The notes under the pieces were generated by a model. That model saw nothing but the letters and a program-made list of their open reading frames with translations, was not told the origin of the DNA and did no database searches. From Paraglaciecola sp. L3A3 (GTDB lineage Bacteria; Pseudomonadota; Gammaproteobacteria; Enterobacterales; Alteromonadaceae): a stretch of 64,000 bases of DNA. The number at the start of each line of letters is the position of its first letter. The first letter of the stretch is position 1. The stretch covers positions 372,001-436,000 of the forward strand of contig NZ_CP047023.1 of the NCBI RefSeq assembly GCF_009796765.1, given 5' to 3'. Shown here piece after piece: positions 46,249-56,144 of the stretch. The position numbers and the translations under genes were made by a program.

Positions 46249-47130
46249 ATGAAGAATTTTTTAGCTCTTATTATTGTGGCTTTAGGCCTACTTACCTTTG
46301 GTTCTTTGTTTGTTGTCGAAGAGGGTAATAAAGCCATTGTTATCCAATTTGGTAAAGTACAAAGAGATAGTAGTACTGATGAAACAACGGTTTTTGAACC
46401 TGGGTTACATTTTAAATTACCGTTTTTTGATCGTGTGGTAAAACTGGATGCACGTATTCAAACTCTAGATGAAGTGCCTGATCGTTTTGTGACTTCTGAG
46501 AAAAAAGATTTAATTGTCGATTTATACGTTAAATGGAAAATTAAAGATTTTGCAAAATACTATCTAGCCACCGGTGGCATTAAAAGTAGTGCTGAAGTCT
46601 TACTACAACAGAAAGTAAACAACGGATTACGTTCTGAGTTTGGTACACGTACCATTCAACAAATTGTATCTGGTGAACGTTCTGAATTAATGGATGAGGC
46701 AATGGAACAAGCTTCTTCTAGTTCAGATGAGTTAGGTATTGAAATTGTAGATGTGCGAGTTAAACAAATTAACTTACCACCTGAAGTACGTAATTTTATA
46801 TTCCAACGTATGCGTACTGAGCGTGAAGCTGTGGCCAGAGAACATCGTTCTGAAGGTCAAGAAAAAGCTGAGTTTATCAAAGCTGACATCGACGCTAAAG
46901 TCACAGTTATGTTAGCTGATGCAGAACGTAACCTACGTAAACTTAAAGGTGAAGGTGAGGCGCAAGCAGCTCAAATTTATGCTGAAACCTATACAAAAGA
47001 TCCTGAATTTTATAGCTTTTTACGTAGTATGGACGCTTACAAGAAGAGTTTTAATTCTAAACAAGATGTAATAGTTGTTGAGCCTGATAGTGACTTCTTT
47101 CGATACATGAAAGGTCAAAAAGGTAAATAA
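46249..47130 (+). CDS. hflC: FtsH modulator HflC
   Basis: 293 residues. N-terminal membrane helix (LALIIVALGLLTFGSLFVV), band-7 domain with GNKAIVIQFGKV, LPPEVRNFIFQRMRTEREA, and a C-terminal YKKSF...SDFFRYMK. Partner of HflK; last gene of the cluster before a strong terminator. Confidence 0.96.
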   Translation: MKNFLALIIVALGLLTFGSLFVVEEGNKAIVIQFGKVQRDSSTDETTVFEPGLHFKLPFFDRVVKLDARIQTLDEVPDRFVTSEKKDLIVDLYVKWKIKDFAKYYLATGGIKSSAEVLLQQKVNNGLRSEFGTRTIQQIVSGERSELMDEAMEQASSSSDELGIEIVDVRVKQINLPPEVRNFIFQRMRTEREAVAREHRSEGQEKAEFIKADIDAKVTVMLADAERNLRKLKGEGEAQAAQIYAETYTKDPEFYSFLRSMDAYKKSFNSKQDVIVVEPDSDFFRYMKGQKGK

Positions 47131-47151
47131 CTTTTAGTTACCAATATAATA

Positions 47152-47177
47152 AAAAAGCGCCGAATGGCGCTTTTTTT
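47152..47177 (+). terminator. Terminator of the hfl operon
   Basis: AAAAAGCGCC and GGCGCTTTTT form a perfect 10-bp stem with loop GAAT and a T run, 22 bases after hflC. Confidence 0.95.
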
Positions 47178-47249: not shown

Positions 47250-49418
47250 TTATTCGTTGATAACGTTATCCATAGAGTCTAAAAAATTGCAAAACCCTTC
47301 GAAAGGCAGAGGTTTACTAAATAAATAGCCTTGACCTATGTTGCATTGGTTTGCGATTAAAAAGTCTTTTTGTATCTGGGTTTCAATTCCTTCGGCAATA
47401 ACACCTAATTTTAAGCTTTTGGCCATAGATATCACTGCCAAAATAATTGCTCCCTCACAGTCTCGACTTTGGTTATTTCCCGTTAAGGCCATAATAAATG
47501 AACGGTCAATCTTGATGTGATCTATAGGTAATTTTTGCAAGTATGATAATGAACTATAACCTGTGCCAAAATCATCAATCGACACACTCACACCAAGAGT
47601 ACGTAATTCACTTAATAAATAATGTATCTTGTCATAATTATCGATTAACACCCCTTCAGTTAACTCTAGCTCTAATAATTTGGGAGATATGTTTTCTTTA
47701 TTTAAGGTGTATTTAATAAATTCTAATAATTTTTGTTCTGTAACTTGGCGTGGAGATAAATTAACTGTTAGTTTTATTTCAATATTTTTCTGTTTAAGAA
47801 CAGATAATATTCTACAAGCCTCTGCTATTACCCACTTGCCAATAGGGATGATTAAGCCAGTTTGTTCGGCTAAAGGAATAAATAGATCTGGAGGGACAAG
47901 TTCACCGTTTGATAGTCGCCATCTAATTAGGGCTTCTGCTTTTACTATTTTATTAGCGGAGATATCAATTATGGGCTGAAGGAATAATTCAAACTCATCA
48001 TTTTCAATAGCATTTCTTAATGAATCTTCCATTTCAATACGTTTTAAAGAGGCTTCTACTAATTCTTTCGAGTAAAACTCTAAACCACTTTTGGTATTTT
48101 TCTTTGCAGTATATACAGCTAAATCTGCATATTTCATCAGCTCTTCAGCATTGTTTGAATCTTTCGGATAAGCCCCTGCGCCAACGTTTAATCCTACTTC
48201 ACATTTTATATTTGAATCAAAGTAAAAGGGCAATGAACAAGTACTAATTAAATCATCGACGAATCGACAACATTGGATTTGGTCTTCAGCAGAAAATTGA
48301 CTATGTTGGTGGTCGAGTTCCATTATTATGGCAAATTCAGTTCCGCCTATTCTGGCGACAACATCATCTACATGAGAGACAGATAACAAACGTTTTGATA
48401 ACTCTTTAATCAAACGATCGCCAATTAGGTGCCCATATAATTCGTTTATGCGTTTAAAGTGTTTGATATCGATATAGAGTAAATAAAAGGATCTATTTCG
48501 TTTTATCTTTTTTTCTAATTGCAGCCAAAAATATTGGCGGTTTGGCAAATCAGTTAGAACATCAAAATGAGTCAGTTTCTCATTTTGTTTCAACAGAAAC
48601 TTAATTTGTGTGACATCACTGACACTTAATAACCAATATTGAATCGCTTGGTTGGCATCTTTAATTGGGTGTATCGCGACTTTTAACCACTTACCTTGTT
48701 CTGGTGGATTGAGCCAACACAATTCTCCTGTCCATGGGCTATAAGTATTAAATACCCTTTCATATTCAGGGTATTGTTTTTTAAATAAGCTTAAAATAAG
48801 TCTATCAACAGGTAGTTGGATTTCTATGTGGGAGTCATTAAAGAGTGAACTTAATGCAGGGTTTCCCGCCACTAATTGTAATCTAGCGTCTAAAATTGCT
48901 ACCCCTAAATCTGTTTGTTCTAGGGCTTGCAATATCGGCTGTTGGATAGTTTTGGATTGATTAGTCTTAGCAAGCATAGCATTTAATTTTGTATGTAAAT
49001 GATCATGCTTTTCGGTTATTTGGTCGTTAGATATTAATAATTCTCTAGCGAGCTGTAAGGTGTGTTGTTTTTGTTCGAATTTGCTTTTGAGCCTATGAAT
49101 CACTAAGTAATATTTGTGCTGATTGACTATCGCATTGGCTTCTAATCTTAGTAATTGGTCTGGGATTTGTTCAGACCATATGCCTGATTCGATACTACCA
49201 TTTTTTGAGGTTGCCCAAAGCTCTGCTGCATCGATTAAGAAATATTCTAGATAATGAGAGTTTTGCGAAAAAGTGAATATCTTTTTATTGTGCGTTTCGG
49301 GCAACAACTGATTTAGCCATTTTCCTTGATTATACAACACTTCAAATTCACTTTCTGAGACTCGCTCAAGTATGACGCAATCAAGTAAATCTAATTCGTG
49401 AAACAATGAAATGTCCAT
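47250..49418 (-). CDS. PAS/GGDEF/EAL protein, probable c-di-GMP phosphodiesterase
   Basis: 722 residues, no membrane segment. An N-terminal region of about 170 residues with no recognised domain and a coiled-coil-like end; PAS at about 170-280; GGDEF domain about 285-440 whose signature reads G-G-T-E-F, so cyclase activity is doubtful; EAL domain about 460-705 with intact motifs E-A-L-I-R-W, NLS, ELTEGVL, DDFGTGYSSLSYL, KIDRSF, AEGIET and GQGYLFSKP. It therefore most likely degrades cyclic di-GMP, with the GGTEF part possibly a GTP sensor. It starts seven bases after the small GTPase gene, as the last gene of a four-gene unit. Confidence 0.88.
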   Translation of the reverse strand: MDISLFHELDLLDCVILERVSESEFEVLYNQGKWLNQLLPETHNKKIFTFSQNSHYLEYFLIDAAELWATSKNGSIESGIWSEQIPDQLLRLEANAIVNQHKYYLVIHRLKSKFEQKQHTLQLARELLISNDQITEKHDHLHTKLNAMLAKTNQSKTIQQPILQALEQTDLGVAILDARLQLVAGNPALSSLFNDSHIEIQLPVDRLILSLFKKQYPEYERVFNTYSPWTGELCWLNPPEQGKWLKVAIHPIKDANQAIQYWLLSVSDVTQIKFLLKQNEKLTHFDVLTDLPNRQYFWLQLEKKIKRNRSFYLLYIDIKHFKRINELYGHLIGDRLIKELSKRLLSVSHVDDVVARIGGTEFAIIMELDHQHSQFSAEDQIQCCRFVDDLISTCSLPFYFDSNIKCEVGLNVGAGAYPKDSNNAEELMKYADLAVYTAKKNTKSGLEFYSKELVEASLKRIEMEDSLRNAIENDEFELFLQPIIDISANKIVKAEALIRWRLSNGELVPPDLFIPLAEQTGLIIPIGKWVIAEACRILSVLKQKNIEIKLTVNLSPRQVTEQKLLEFIKYTLNKENISPKLLELELTEGVLIDNYDKIHYLLSELRTLGVSVSIDDFGTGYSSLSYLQKLPIDHIKIDRSFIMALTGNNQSRDCEGAIILAVISMAKSLKLGVIAEGIETQIQKDFLIANQCNIGQGYLFSKPLPFEGFCNFLDSMDNVINE

Positions 49419-49425
49419 ATCAAGG

Positions 49426-49917
49426 TTACTCCGTTAAAATATTCGCTATATAAGAAAACATCTCTTCAACACCTTCTCCAGTTTTTGCACTGGTATCAAA
49501 AGATTTAGAGTATGAATGTTTGATATCGCTTAATTCTGATTCAGTCCAGTGCCATGTAGTAGGTAGATCTTTTTTATTTAGAGCAAGTATTGCTGGAATA
49601 TCTGACACTTCTTTGACCATTCTATATATTTCAATGCCCTCAACTAATGATTGAGAGCGAGTGCAGTCTGCGACTATGATGAATGCAGATGCTCCTCTTA
49701 TATATTTAGGTTGAAACCCGCAGTATCTATCAATACCCTCTATATCCCAAATCATTAACTGCACTGATTCTTTATCCGTTTGTACCACTTTTTTATCAAT
49801 TTTTACCCCAATAGAGGTAAGGTACTTTTCAGAAAAAATACCTTCTACAAATTGTTTAATCAGGCTCGTTTTCCCTACTCCCGAAGCCCCGAGTATACAA
49901 ATTTTCTTCTGGATCAT
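49426..49917 (-). CDS. Rab/Ras-like small GTPase
   Basis: 163 residues, a single G domain: G1 G-A-S-G-V-G-K-T (residues 10-17), effector-like Y-L-T-S-I-G-V, G3 W-D-I-E-G, G4 N-K-K-D, G5 T-S-A-K. The layout is strikingly like eukaryotic Rab proteins; bacterial relatives include MglA and the uncharacterised Rup groups. The glutamine of Ras that helps hydrolysis is absent after G3, so a partner protein may supply or stimulate activity. No lipid-attachment Cys at the C-terminus. It sits between a roadblock/longin-like membrane protein and an EAL protein. Confidence 0.85.
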   Translation of the reverse strand: MIQKKICILGASGVGKTSLIKQFVEGIFSEKYLTSIGVKIDKKVVQTDKESVQLMIWDIEGIDRYCGFQPKYIRGASAFIIVADCTRSQSLVEGIEIYRMVKEVSDIPAILALNKKDLPTTWHWTESELSDIKHSYSKSFDTSAKTGEGVEEMFSYIANILTE

Positions 49918-49971
49918 AAGGTTCTCAACAGATACGTTTTTATCATAATTATTATTTTAAATGTTTGTTGG

Positions 49972-51741
49972 TTAATGACTTGCATTAAAATATACCACAT
50001 TAAATAGCACTTTTCGGGCGCCTTCGTCAGTTGTTTTTAAATCAATCACTCCTAAACCTATTGCATTAAGCCTATTGGCGTCGATACCTAGCTCTTGGAG
50101 TTTCAATTTTACATTGTCAGCCCGTTTCTGACTGAGAATATTATTATAACTTTCTGTCCCGACGGTATCGCTTGCTCCCATAATGACTAAACCGAGTGAT
50201 AGCTTTTGTTGATCGGCAACTTGGATTAAGTTATTAAATTGTTCTTTAACTTGTATCAGCGTATTTATCCCCGCAGCTGATATTTCACTTTTTCCTTTTT
50301 CGAAAGAGATTGAGACATTGTCAATTTTAGCTATGTTTAAATCTAATATGGCGCGAATAATAGTGGGATCATCAGCGGCACTACTTTTGTTGCTATTTAT
50401 TGTGATACCGTCTAGCCATTTGGCTTTAAAATTTAAGCCTAGAATTGAAGACAATTCATCTTGTAGTAGTAATTTTTCTAAACCACTGAGTTGTCCACTA
50501 AAAGTTGGCTGGTCGTTAGACCAATCAACTTCTACATTGGCAAAAGCCCTCAAGCTTTTCTGTACTTTATTTTTTATTAGCTGAGCATCTAAAGATAAAT
50601 AAGCACGTTCTGTGAAATTAATATGTTCTAGAGGGATGTTATGTGAATTTAGCCATTTTGTTATGTCAATAGCTGATGGGTCTCTTAATGCTTTAAGGTT
50701 TATTTCTTTTAACCCTGTCAATTCTAACTCAGTAACTAATATGCCCGGCTCTAGATCTATTTGTTGTATCTGTTCTACAAGGTTGCTAGATTGCCAACGT
50801 ATTGTGGCTAAATACCCTGCTGCAAGTAATATTAATCCGACTACAATCCAAGCTAACCAGGGCTTTTTTTTAGCTTGCTTTGAATCGGTTTTCAATTCTG
50901 CAATTAAACAATCTCTTAACTGGTTTTCACTATTTTCAAATGCAAATGCATCACCATTAAAATCAGTTAATTCTTTATCATAAAGTTTGTGAATTTCTTC
51001 TAAAGTAATTTGTAATTGATTCGCTACATTTTGTGGCATATTACCTGTTACTGCGGCGACCACAACAGCCTTAGGGCCCTGTTTCAGTAATAAAGTAAAG
51101 TCATCGGTACGTACTACATCTAGTTGTTGTTCACTTGAATCAGCATTAGGCTTAAAGGAATCTGAAACAAAATCATTGATGGCGGTCAACATGGAAGAGA
51201 CCATATCGGCATCAGCACCTGTGTCTATTCCCAATGAAACAGAATTAAGCAATAGACCTGTTTCTCTATGAATTAAAAATACTTGTTCTACTCGAAAAGA
51301 AAACGTTTGGCTCGCGACATATTGAGAAAAACTCACATTTGCTTGCCACGCTTTAAAACGCCATGTTAACCCTTTGATGGTTAGGCTGTTTTCAATTAAG
51401 GCATTAGTTTTTTCAAGTAATTCTGTAATGAAAGCAGTGACAGATTTTCTGACTAAACTCCCCACAAGAGGGTATAAGTAGCCGACAAATTGCTCACTAT
51501 GATTGGCTACAGATGTTTCAACTGATTTTTCGACTAGGGGTAATAATACTTTGTTAACTGAACCATCTTGTTTTTCTCGATCGTGTAATGCTTCTGAAAA
51601 AACTTCCCGTACCACTTCTCTGGCATTTTCTTTGAGCGCTTGTTTAACTACATGGCCATCTTCGCCTAACACTATTTGGCGAATTTTATCCATCTGCTCA
51701 GTGTCAGGTATTTGTGGTTGAGCCTCTTGCGAATTTGTCAT
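49972..51741 (-). CDS. Membrane protein: roadblock/longin-like cytoplasmic part plus OmpA-like periplasmic end
   Basis: 589 residues. A cytoplasmic N-terminal region opens with a motif I-R-Q-I-V-L-G (about residue 20). Residues about 148-255 (VEQVFLIHRETGLLLNSVS; AVVVAAVTGN) read like a roadblock/longin-type fold, known as a partner of small GTPases. One membrane helix at about 295-315 (WIVVGLILLAAGYLATI). The periplasmic part ends in an OmpA-like domain (SISFEKGKSEISAAG; LSQKRADNVKLKLQELGID; ANRLNAIGLG) that would bind peptidoglycan. It would connect the GTPase in the cytoplasm to the cell wall. Eight bases after the coiled-coil gene. Confidence 0.75.
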   Translation of the reverse strand: MTNSQEAQPQIPDTEQMDKIRQIVLGEDGHVVKQALKENAREVVREVFSEALHDREKQDGSVNKVLLPLVEKSVETSVANHSEQFVGYLYPLVGSLVRKSVTAFITELLEKTNALIENSLTIKGLTWRFKAWQANVSFSQYVASQTFSFRVEQVFLIHRETGLLLNSVSLGIDTGADADMVSSMLTAINDFVSDSFKPNADSSEQQLDVVRTDDFTLLLKQGPKAVVVAAVTGNMPQNVANQLQITLEEIHKLYDKELTDFNGDAFAFENSENQLRDCLIAELKTDSKQAKKKPWLAWIVVGLILLAAGYLATIRWQSSNLVEQIQQIDLEPGILVTELELTGLKEINLKALRDPSAIDITKWLNSHNIPLEHINFTERAYLSLDAQLIKNKVQKSLRAFANVEVDWSNDQPTFSGQLSGLEKLLLQDELSSILGLNFKAKWLDGITINSNKSSAADDPTIIRAILDLNIAKIDNVSISFEKGKSEISAAGINTLIQVKEQFNNLIQVADQQKLSLGLVIMGASDTVGTESYNNILSQKRADNVKLKLQELGIDANRLNAIGLGVIDLKTTDEGARKVLFNVVYFNASH

Positions 51742-51749
51742 CGGAGGTT

Positions 51750-52292
51750 TTACAAGTCTTCACCAGTTTCTAAATCACTGGCAACAGCGGCAAGTAATTT
51801 AGCAAGGGTTTTACGATCTGTTTTAGATGAGTTTAAGTCAGTGGAAACTTGATTGAGTTTTGCCAAAGTTTGATTAAGTTGCTCGGTAAAAGTGTTGCTC
51901 AGATTTTTTATTTCTTTGTCTAAGCGTTCGTGTATTTCATCATTTTCTTGTTTACTATTGGCTTCTGCCATTTCTAGAGCTGAAGCTATACGGTCTGCAT
52001 AGGCATTGATTTCACTGGCTTTTTGCTCTTGGCCTTGGTCTGCAATCGCTAATTTATCTTCTAAATGATTAAAACCATCTTCCATTTTGGTTTGTAAAGT
52101 TTGCATATTTTTTTCTAGCAACTGTTCCATTTTTCTGAAGTTTTGTTGTGTTTGTTGTTCTAAGGAATCAATACGCTTTTCGATATTATCTTGTGCGGCA
52201 CCGAATACAATTTGGCGTAAACTATCTAATTCAGACGGTTGTTGTGTTGCTTCTACATTCTTTGTATTTTCCACATCTTTTTTATCGGACAT
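51750..52292 (-). CDS. Coiled-coil protein, first gene of the GTPase operon
   Basis: 180 residues, soluble, rich in Gln, Glu, Lys and Asn, with heptad-like patterns over about residues 30-160 (QQTQQNFRKMEQLLEKNMQTL). Near the N-terminus it has L-D-S-L-R-Q-I-V-F-G, closely matching the motif at the start of the adjacent membrane protein. It may be a cytoplasmic adaptor for that protein. No family name recognised. Confidence 0.6.
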   Translation of the reverse strand: MSDKKDVENTKNVEATQQPSELDSLRQIVFGAAQDNIEKRIDSLEQQTQQNFRKMEQLLEKNMQTLQTKMEDGFNHLEDKLAIADQGQEQKASEINAYADRIASALEMAEANSKQENDEIHERLDKEIKNLSNTFTEQLNQTLAKLNQVSTDLNSSKTDRKTLAKLLAAVASDLETGEDL

Positions 52293-52430: not shown

Positions 52431-52460
52431 CCCAAAAAAAACACCACTTTTAAGTGGTGT
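52431..52460 (-). terminator. Terminator of the TonB-dependent receptor gene
   Basis: On the minus strand, AACACCACTT and AAGTGGTGTT form a 10-bp stem followed by a run of T, about 30 bases after the stop codon. Confidence 0.9.
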
Positions 52461-52491
52461 TAAAGTTGACAGTGGCATGTTTACTTATATT

Positions 52492-54576: not shown

Positions 54577-54871
54577 AATGGCTTCCTTGATGTTAAACCT
54601 ATTGTTTGCTGTTTGAATTGCTGTACATATTAAGTAGAAGTTTCTACAAGATCTGTTGTATAAGTGTGAGTAAGTGTTATTGCCATCTATGCAATGAGTT
54701 TTATTAATTAGGGTTAGCTGTCATGTCGTTAAGGTAGGTGATGCCAATAGGGATGGGGCTGATAATTTGATCAATAACTTACAATTTTTGAACATTTTAG
54801 TTGGCGCTTAGATTATTTATTAAACGCCTGCTTTGTTACTATTACAAATATCGAAATTTAGTGATAAAAAT
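54577..54871. other. Divergent promoter region of the receptor and mipA cluster
   Basis: About 295 bases with no gene. No clear operator was identified. The mipA ORF has an in-frame upstream start at 54833, but ATG 54872 gives the better signal peptide. Confidence 0.5.
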
Positions 54872-55744
54872 ATGCAAACGAGATGTTTATTTAAATTGTT
54901 GCTCGCCAGCTTTTGCTTCTGCAGTGCAGGGGTATTTGCACAAAGTAATAATCAGCCAACGGCTAACGTCCATTCTGATAACCCTGAAGGAAAATTTAGT
55001 TGGAGCTTAACCATAGCGACTGACATAGTTTTGACAGAGTCGATGTTTATTGGTGCAGAGCAAGATCAAGATTTGGATTTTGTTAATATTTCTATTTTGT
55101 TGGATCTATATTATAAGGGTTTTTTTATTCAAACGAATAAGCATAGATTTGGTGGGTATGCGAATGGTGCTGAAGTTGGTTATGAATTAGAGGTGAATGA
55201 TCAATACGAAATCGACTTAATCAATAAAATGTATTTACCCGGATTTTCGTCTTCTTATGTTGGCACAATTGATACCCGAGATATCCCAGAATTAGAGGGA
55301 ATTAAAGATCGTGAGTTTATCTCGAGTCAAGGGATCCGATATATGCGCTATTTATCAAACTCAGTATATTGGATAGATTTAGCGGCAAATATATTCGGCG
55401 ATGAACACAGTGGCTGGGTGGTAGATGGCTTTTACAGTTACATTTTGCAGAAACGGAATTGGGATATAAATTTAGGCGTAGGGGCTAGTTTTTATTCAAG
55501 CAATATGAATAATTACTATTTTTCTATTAAGCCAGAAGAAGCGACTCAGATCAGAACCGAGTATAAACCAGGGGCAGGCTATCGTTTACAAATAGAGGCC
55601 TTTGTTCAGCGGCCAATAAATGAAGATTGGTTATTCAATGGAGGACTGACGATTAGTCATTATTCTAAGAGTATTGCTGATAGTCCTATAGTGGTTCGAG
55701 AAAATGAAGTCACTGCTCAAATAGGCTTTAGTTATGTATTTTAA
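54872..55744 (+). CDS. MipA/OmpV-family outer membrane protein
   Basis: ATG 54872 gives a signal peptide (LLASFCFCSAGVFA). A beta-barrel of about 270 residues with the MipA landmarks GGYANGAEVGYELE, YVGTIDTRD and a C-terminal Phe (F-S-Y-V-F). Such proteins are linked to envelope enzymes or cation/peptide stress. It overlaps the DUF3019 gene by 11 bases and heads a cluster with a two-component system. Confidence 0.85.
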   Translation: MQTRCLFKLLLASFCFCSAGVFAQSNNQPTANVHSDNPEGKFSWSLTIATDIVLTESMFIGAEQDQDLDFVNISILLDLYYKGFFIQTNKHRFGGYANGAEVGYELEVNDQYEIDLINKMYLPGFSSSYVGTIDTRDIPELEGIKDREFISSQGIRYMRYLSNSVYWIDLAANIFGDEHSGWVVDGFYSYILQKRNWDINLGVGASFYSSNMNNYYFSIKPEEATQIRTEYKPGAGYRLQIEAFVQRPINEDWLFNGGLTISHYSKSIADSPIVVRENEVTAQIGFSYVF

Positions 55745-56144
55745 ACAACAGTTAAAATGGATTTTATTGTTGTATTTTAGTTGTTCTTCTCCATCTTTCG
55801 CTCAAGATAAGTTAATGTCATCAGCTCAGTTGCTGGTACAACCTAATAAGTGTGTTGCCCTTAATCAAGGGCGGGAGTGTTTTGCCGAGTTAACTATTCG
55901 TTGGCAACAAAATGAAACCAGTGACTATTGCTTATTTATTCAAGAGTTTAATGCCTATCCTAGATTATTGCGTTGTTGGCATGACGTTAATCAGGCTGTG
56001 TGGCAATATGAATTTCAATCAACAAACGATAGCCAATTTTTGTTAATGAAAAAAATGCCGCAAACAGTGTTAGCTTCTGCAAAGGTTCAAGTCAGCTGGT
56101 TGTATAAAGCCAGTATCCGAAAACGCAGATGGCGACTTTTTTAG
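55734..56144 (+). CDS. Exported DUF3019 protein
   Basis: 136 residues with a signal peptide (WILLLYFSCSSPSFA). DUF3019 pattern: LLVQPNKCVALNQGRECFAELTIRW, Y-C-L-F-I-Q, L-R-C-W, and the basic end S-I-R-K-R-R-W-R-L-F. Four conserved Cys suggest two disulfides. Typically next to mipA and a two-component system in Alteromonadales. Confidence 0.88.
   Translation: MYFKQQLKWILLLYFSCSSPSFAQDKLMSSAQLLVQPNKCVALNQGRECFAELTIRWQQNETSDYCLFIQEFNAYPRLLRCWHDVNQAVWQYEFQSTNDSQFLLMKKMPQTVLASAKVQVSWLYKASIRKRRWRLF

Follow-up and report, generated by a model that had tools for sequence, protein, structure and literature searches.

A Group 1 Rup GTPase cassette in Paraglaciecola with a predicted longin domain in its membrane protein

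Introduction

According to the accessible part of the work of Wuichet and Sogaard-Andersen (2014; PMC4316618), the bacterial Group 1 Rup GTPases, which closely resemble the eukaryotic Rab/Ran/Ras/Rho group, lack the catalytic Gln and adjoin three conserved genes. The first codes for a coiled-coil protein. The product of the second has an unknown domain, after which a single membrane helix and an OmpA domain often follow. In the product of the third, a signal output protein that is usually a cyclic di-GMP (c-di-GMP) enzyme or a histidine kinase, the N-terminal region contains an invariant Gln. The same text records no coupling between Rup proteins and MglB, states that as of 2014 no Rup protein had been characterised and the function of Group 1 was unknown, and speculates that a GTPase-activating protein (GAP) may reside in the output protein. 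We found no later functional study of Group 1 Rup systems in the open-access literature, most subscription journals lying outside this search. Here, we analyze a four-gene locus of this kind from the genome of Paraglaciecola sp. L3A3, a single contig of 5.31 Mb (NZ_CP047023.1). The locus lies in a stretch of 64,000 nucleotides (positions 372,001 to 436,000), called the window below, whose numbering is used throughout.

In the MglA/MglB systems of Myxococcus and Thermus, a small GTPase is likewise genetically coupled to a partner of the roadblock/longin class. However, MglB is a roadblock protein, whereas the partner in the window is a predicted longin domain joined to a transmembrane (TM) helix and an OmpA domain, with no detectable sequence kinship to MglB. 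MglA has a Thr in place of the Asp of the G3 motif, which the window GTPase keeps. The actinobacterial conservons (Cvn, Mfp) are likewise operons of a small GTPase, a platform protein and a signalling enzyme; to our knowledge, they contain neither an OmpA scaffold nor a c-di-GMP enzyme. Their components are an MglA-type GTPase, an MglB-type roadblock protein, a DUF protein and a histidine kinase (PMC4316618, accessible part). Finally, the eukaryotic longin guanine nucleotide exchange factors (GEFs) of Rab proteins (TRAPP, Mon1-Ccz1, Fuzzy-Inturned) would resemble the window system in pairing a Rab-like GTPase with a longin domain of bb-a-bbb-a-a topology (b, strand; a, helix). These GEFs are heterodimers or multi-subunit complexes, whereas one longin domain per protein is predicted in the window, where the system also differs from eukaryotic Rab/GEF pairs by its wall anchor and by a GTPase without the conserved prenylation cysteine.

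Results and discussion

The locus matches the published Group 1 Rup class

The locus comprises four minus-strand genes (52292-47250) separated by 8, 54 and 7 bases; their number, order, strand and gaps, as given in an initial annotation of the DNA, were confirmed from the list of open reading frames (ORFs). The first ORF (51750..52292, minus strand) encodes a cytosolic coiled-coil protein of 180 amino acids with the N-terminal motif LDSLRQIVFG, no hydrophobic segment and a helical (3.6-residue) hydrophobic periodicity. The second (49972..51741, minus strand) encodes a membrane protein of 589 amino acids, assigned from domain matches, an AlphaFold2 model and fold matches. It is followed by the gene of a Rup-type Ras-superfamily GTPase of 163 amino acids (49426..49917, minus strand), recognised by its domain match, G motifs and relatives, and by that of an output enzyme of 722 amino acids (47250..49418, minus strand), in which domain and motif matches and a model point to a PAS-like N-terminal domain, a second, weak PAS region, GGTEF and EAL. 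The coiled coil, the one-helix topology and OmpA-like end of the membrane protein, the Rab-like GTPase and the EAL enzyme had all been proposed in the initial annotation and were borne out.

The GTPase is shorter than 240 amino acids, has Asp in G3, lacks the catalytic Gln and has a coiled-coil gene and a domain-TM-OmpA gene as neighbours. The output protein also carries an invariant N-terminal Gln (Q122), probably the Gln described in PMC4316618. On the strength of this gene set and these motifs, we assign the locus to the Group 1 Rup signalling cassettes; its four gene types are those of the accessible description. Since the window fits each point of the 2014 description, the four-gene architecture is not a discovery, and the locus itself belongs to a published class. 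New here are the longin prediction for the cytosolic domain, listed as unknown in the accessible text, the exchangeable outputs and a shared N-terminal motif; among the outputs, HD-GYP and sigma-54 proteins are additions to that text, although its supplement may list some of them.

A longin fold is predicted for the cytosolic domain of the membrane protein

The membrane protein begins with the motif MDKIRQIVLG, followed by a helical region, the predicted longin-fold domain (residues ~147-283), a TM helix (296-314), a periplasmic part and an OmpA domain (480-573) that by inspection retains the canonical wall-binding pattern. The cytosolic part (residues 1-300; 50842..51741, minus strand) was modelled with AlphaFold2. 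The model contains strands at 147-158, 164-169, 209-211, 216-221 and 225-233 and helices at 178-195, 237-253 and 266-276, with an extra helix (138-146) before b1, and its topology agrees with the bb-a-bbb-a-a definition of the longin fold (PMC6864590, accessible part). Moreover, the model matched solved longin domains, the nearest being those of SNARE, TRAPP and Fuzzy-Inturned proteins, with MglB scoring lower, and the Rab exchange factors TRAPP and Mon1-Ccz1 were within the nine best Foldseek matches. The domain left unlabelled in 2014 is thus predicted to have a longin fold.

Sequence comparisons gave no family assignment. The best longin family in Pfam scans, Fuz_longin_1, matched 2 of 67 relatives without significance (E=0.016), and a PDB profile search with the cytosolic domain returned no convincing match. 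We rejected a roadblock domain by sequence, as kinship to MglB/roadblock was undetectable in Pfam scans of the 67 relatives, in the PDB profile search and in a profile comparison with 23 roadblock domains (hhalign probability 0.7-1.1%; 23 of 25 loci, two near contig ends being dropped). The roadblock family PF03259 had no match anywhere in the host genome. Hence, the roadblock/longin class named in the initial annotation is predicted by the model and its fold matches, with a longin rather than a roadblock appearance. Three genomes (G091, G235, G341) contain open frames of 888-982 amino acids with two matches to the N-terminal part of the membrane protein.

The GTPase and the longin protein are inherited together

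The gene-neighbourhood survey suggested by the initial annotation covered the top 80 among at least 557 relatives, leaning towards Alteromonadales, and genes recognised with home-made profiles were counted at any position within the fetched locus. All four genes were together in 73 of these 80 relatives. Both points on which the initial annotation could have failed, the predicted fold class of the cytosolic part and the joint occurrence of the four genes elsewhere, came out in its favour. In most relatives, the genes lie side by side on the same strand; in L140 and L149, those for the coiled-coil and membrane proteins point away, and L146 and L161, which have no GTPase row in the adjacency listing, are nevertheless counted as having the GTPase in the four-gene tally. 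Among the seven uncounted loci, contig ends truncate L158, L159 and L162, no output was recognised in L165 or L167, and L137 and L154 are discussed below. The survey reached seven phyla (Pseudomonadota, Verrucomicrobiota, Acidobacteriota, Nitrospirota, Chloroflexota, Bacteroidota and Rhodothermota), the last four with one contig each and several resting on one metagenome-assembled contig.

Across a separate set of 369 Gammaproteobacteria, the GTPase was present in 31, the cytosolic domain in 30 and both in 29 (Fisher p 1.4e-39, uncorrected for kinship). The exceptions were G063, whose Ras-family protein is longer and has no Rup-like neighbours, G423, on a 3-kb contig, and G235, with a cytosolic domain and no GTPase above threshold. 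In G341, the longin gene and the GTPase lie on different contigs (C5 and C11). Within the genus, a large membrane-protein match was found in 17 of 21 other genomes (in two pieces in G018) and was lacking in G001, G016, G020 and G021.

A wall-anchored longin platform as the favoured mechanism

With somewhat better than even confidence, we read the locus as a wall-anchored longin platform controlling a Rab-like switch that gates an output, here c-di-GMP breakdown. In this scheme, whose contacts, signal direction and stimulus we infer, the OmpA domain would tether the membrane protein to peptidoglycan, a single helix would cross the inner membrane, and the cytosolic longin domain would recruit the Rup GTPase and set its nucleotide state, by exchange or recruitment. 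The loaded GTPase would then engage the PAS-like domain at the N terminus of the output enzyme, from which a signal running via a long helix with the invariant Gln122 would switch the EAL phosphodiesterase. The coiled-coil protein bears the same N-terminal helix as the membrane protein and would therefore probably compete with it, or bridge it, at one docking site. The core proposal of the initial annotation, a wall-anchored scaffold that regulates a GTPase, survives as the best reading, with longin replacing roadblock. No observation of this analysis, which was not directed at the matter, favours the link to motility, polarity or adhesion that the annotation raised.

Several observations weigh against this mechanism. 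Helix a1 (178-195) of the longin model has a pLDDT (predicted local distance difference test) of only 62-71, and Mon1-Ccz1 and MglB were tied by Z as fold matches; both points lowered our confidence. The wall-binding residues of OmpA are canonical in 29 of 72 relatives, and 21 of the 72 fail even a relaxed pattern. There is no OmpA match in the longin proteins of L152 (L152:6897-7919, Dehalococcoidia; 340 amino acids) and L155 (L155:6726-7577, Verrucomicrobiia; 283 amino acids). Lastly, L137 and L154 have a GTPase and an output, and no coiled-coil or longin gene was found there. L137, from Paraglaciecola arctica A3R16, is a second GTPase with an HD-GYP output, the EAL-type module of the same strain being L094.

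The GTPase lacks the catalytic Gln

The motifs of the GTPase (Ras, E=4e-29) are GASGVGKT (G1), WDIEGI (G3), NKKD (G4) and TSAK (G5); G3 carries Asp58, with Ile where the catalytic Gln is expected, and none of 80 relatives has Gln after DxxG. The presence of Asp58 and the lack of a PF03259 match in the genome ruled out an MglA assignment, and MglA/MglB and conservon systems were rejected on the same grounds. Thus, the GTPase is Rab-like, as first annotated, but of the Rup type, with a G3 Asp and no catalytic Gln, and the MglA/MglB parallel drawn for it was not retained. Rab GTPases bear C-terminal prenylation cysteines. The window GTPase ends in IANILTE, and a Cys among the last five residues was seen in 3 of 80 relatives. 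A Ras-family protein of 281 amino acids with a C-terminal extension (L079:6165-7010) has no Rup-like neighbours.

The N-terminal domain of the output enzyme (residues 1-178; 48885..49418, minus strand) was modelled as a PAS-like fold with a long helix bearing Gln122, a residue invariant in 64 of 64 domains (alignment A5). This invariance, and the lack of a G3 Gln in 80 of 80 GTPases, would also suit a mechanism in which the output domain regulates the GTPase as a GAP, its Gln replacing the missing one in trans, with the longin protein a mere anchor; the occurrence of GTPase and output in L137 and L154, where the other two genes were not found, points the same way. However, Gln122 sits in the model within the long helix that leaves the PAS-like core, a position that would also suit a structural or coiled-coil role, and the GTPase and the longin protein co-occur almost without exception, for which an anchoring role alone hardly accounts. 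We regard regulation by a Gln in trans as possible, though not probable.

The coiled-coil and membrane proteins share an N-terminal motif

Both proteins start with an LxxLRxIVFG/LxxLRxLLLG segment. Of the coiled-coil proteins, 72 of 74 carried the strict pattern, as did 52 of 75 membrane proteins, compared to 0.2 and 0.3% of shuffled N termini, and among 12 listed of the 23 membrane-protein misses, 11 were near variants and one was a gene fragment. Moreover, the motif pair was the best match between the two families over all 14-residue profile windows (z 5.0). As the motif is common to both proteins, we infer that they dock to one partner. The best fold match of the PAS-like domain, 1oj5, is a structure of a PAS domain together with an LXXLL helix, which suggests that this domain could be the docking partner.

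SNARE and adaptor longins bind helices, and VIA fold matches include the VAMP7 longin complexed with partner peptides or fragments (4afi, 2vx8). Together with the shared motif, this is compatible with a longin domain that would bind a helix, such as LRxIVFG of the coiled-coil protein or of its own N terminus, instead of the GTPase; the system would then sense wall stress, and the action of the GTPase would be confined to the output. We consider this unlikely given the TRAPP and Mon1-Ccz1 exchange factors among the best Foldseek matches and the strong co-inheritance of the longin protein with the GTPase.

Outputs are exchangeable behind a common N-terminal domain

The catalytic motifs of EAL are present (EALIR 495, NLS 553, ELTEG 585, DDFGTG 615, KIDRSF 636, AEGIET 675, GQGY 695), and the output enzyme is predicted from these to be a phosphodiesterase that destroys c-di-GMP. 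Active diguanylate cyclases have the signature GG(D/E)EF. The site in the window is degenerate (GGTEF at 358), and canonical GGDEF was found in 13 of 46 relatives, 8 of the 46 not being read by the pattern; a cyclase as the main activity was therefore rejected.

One PAS-like N-terminal domain precedes EAL, HD-GYP, histidine kinase and, once, sigma-54 activator outputs. The sigma-54 protein (L156:9009-10796, Nitrospirales) consists of the common domain, PAS and the activator. Strongly supported branches of the tree alone force only 2 changes each for histidine kinase and HD-GYP; this tree comes from a quick search, has several weak forks and two long rows, and omits L096 and L105, whose genes are broken, along with loci that have no longin protein or no classified output. 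Control of c-di-GMP, as initially annotated, would apply to the EAL output here and does not extend to the module as a whole: histidine-kinase or sigma-54 outputs occur in relatives alongside EAL and HD-GYP.

This order is rich in EAL and GGDEF proteins, and the locus might be seen as an ordinary c-di-GMP phosphodiesterase operon with the GTPase as a passenger. The survey of relatives makes this highly improbable, since outputs swap while the GTPase, longin and coiled-coil genes stay together and the N-terminal domain is common to unrelated outputs.

Two outputs (L054:310-2319, L061:4866-6338) appear to carry tandem copies of the N-terminal domain (alignment A2). In other Gammaproteobacteria (L062, L064, L065, L068, L069, L072, L073, L074, L076), the module is extended towards a phosphorelay, with an OmpR-type response regulator before the coiled-coil gene (Pfam-checked in L064 and L076), a hybrid histidine kinase after the GTPase and, in some, an HPt protein; in L062, an HPt-receiver-GGDEF protein adjoins the kinase.

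Implications of a possible bacterial longin platform

If a longin platform is the conserved membrane partner, the role of these GTPases would become directly testable, as would the questions of whether the Rab-longin partnership predates, or is independent of, eukaryotes and how a small GTPase gates interchangeable c-di-GMP or phosphorelay outputs from the envelope. With a longin fold predicted, outputs seen to be exchangeable and a motif found in two of the proteins, a class that is experimentally unexplored becomes a testable model, of which the window holds one compact four-gene version. A bolder proposal would be that bacteria own pairs of Rab and longin exchange factors, the wall-bound longin being a genuine nucleotide-exchange platform for a Rab-like GTPase. 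The pairing of GTPase and longin on which eukaryotic membrane identity centres would then occur, operon-linked, in at least seven bacterial phyla as well, turning cell-wall state into c-di-GMP breakdown or phosphorelay via a plug-in PAS-like adaptor; we hold this to be quite unlikely.

Flanking genes

By pattern match only, terminator-like hairpins flank the four-gene unit at both ends: one upstream (52440..52461, minus strand), after the gene of a TonB-dependent receptor, and one downstream (47151..47176, minus strand), between the phosphodiesterase gene and a convergent gene ending at 47130. The convergent downstream genes are hflX-hflK-hflC, as named from their translations. Divergent from the TonB receptor gene, at 54833-56144, are slightly overlapping genes of a MipA-family and a DUF3019 protein.
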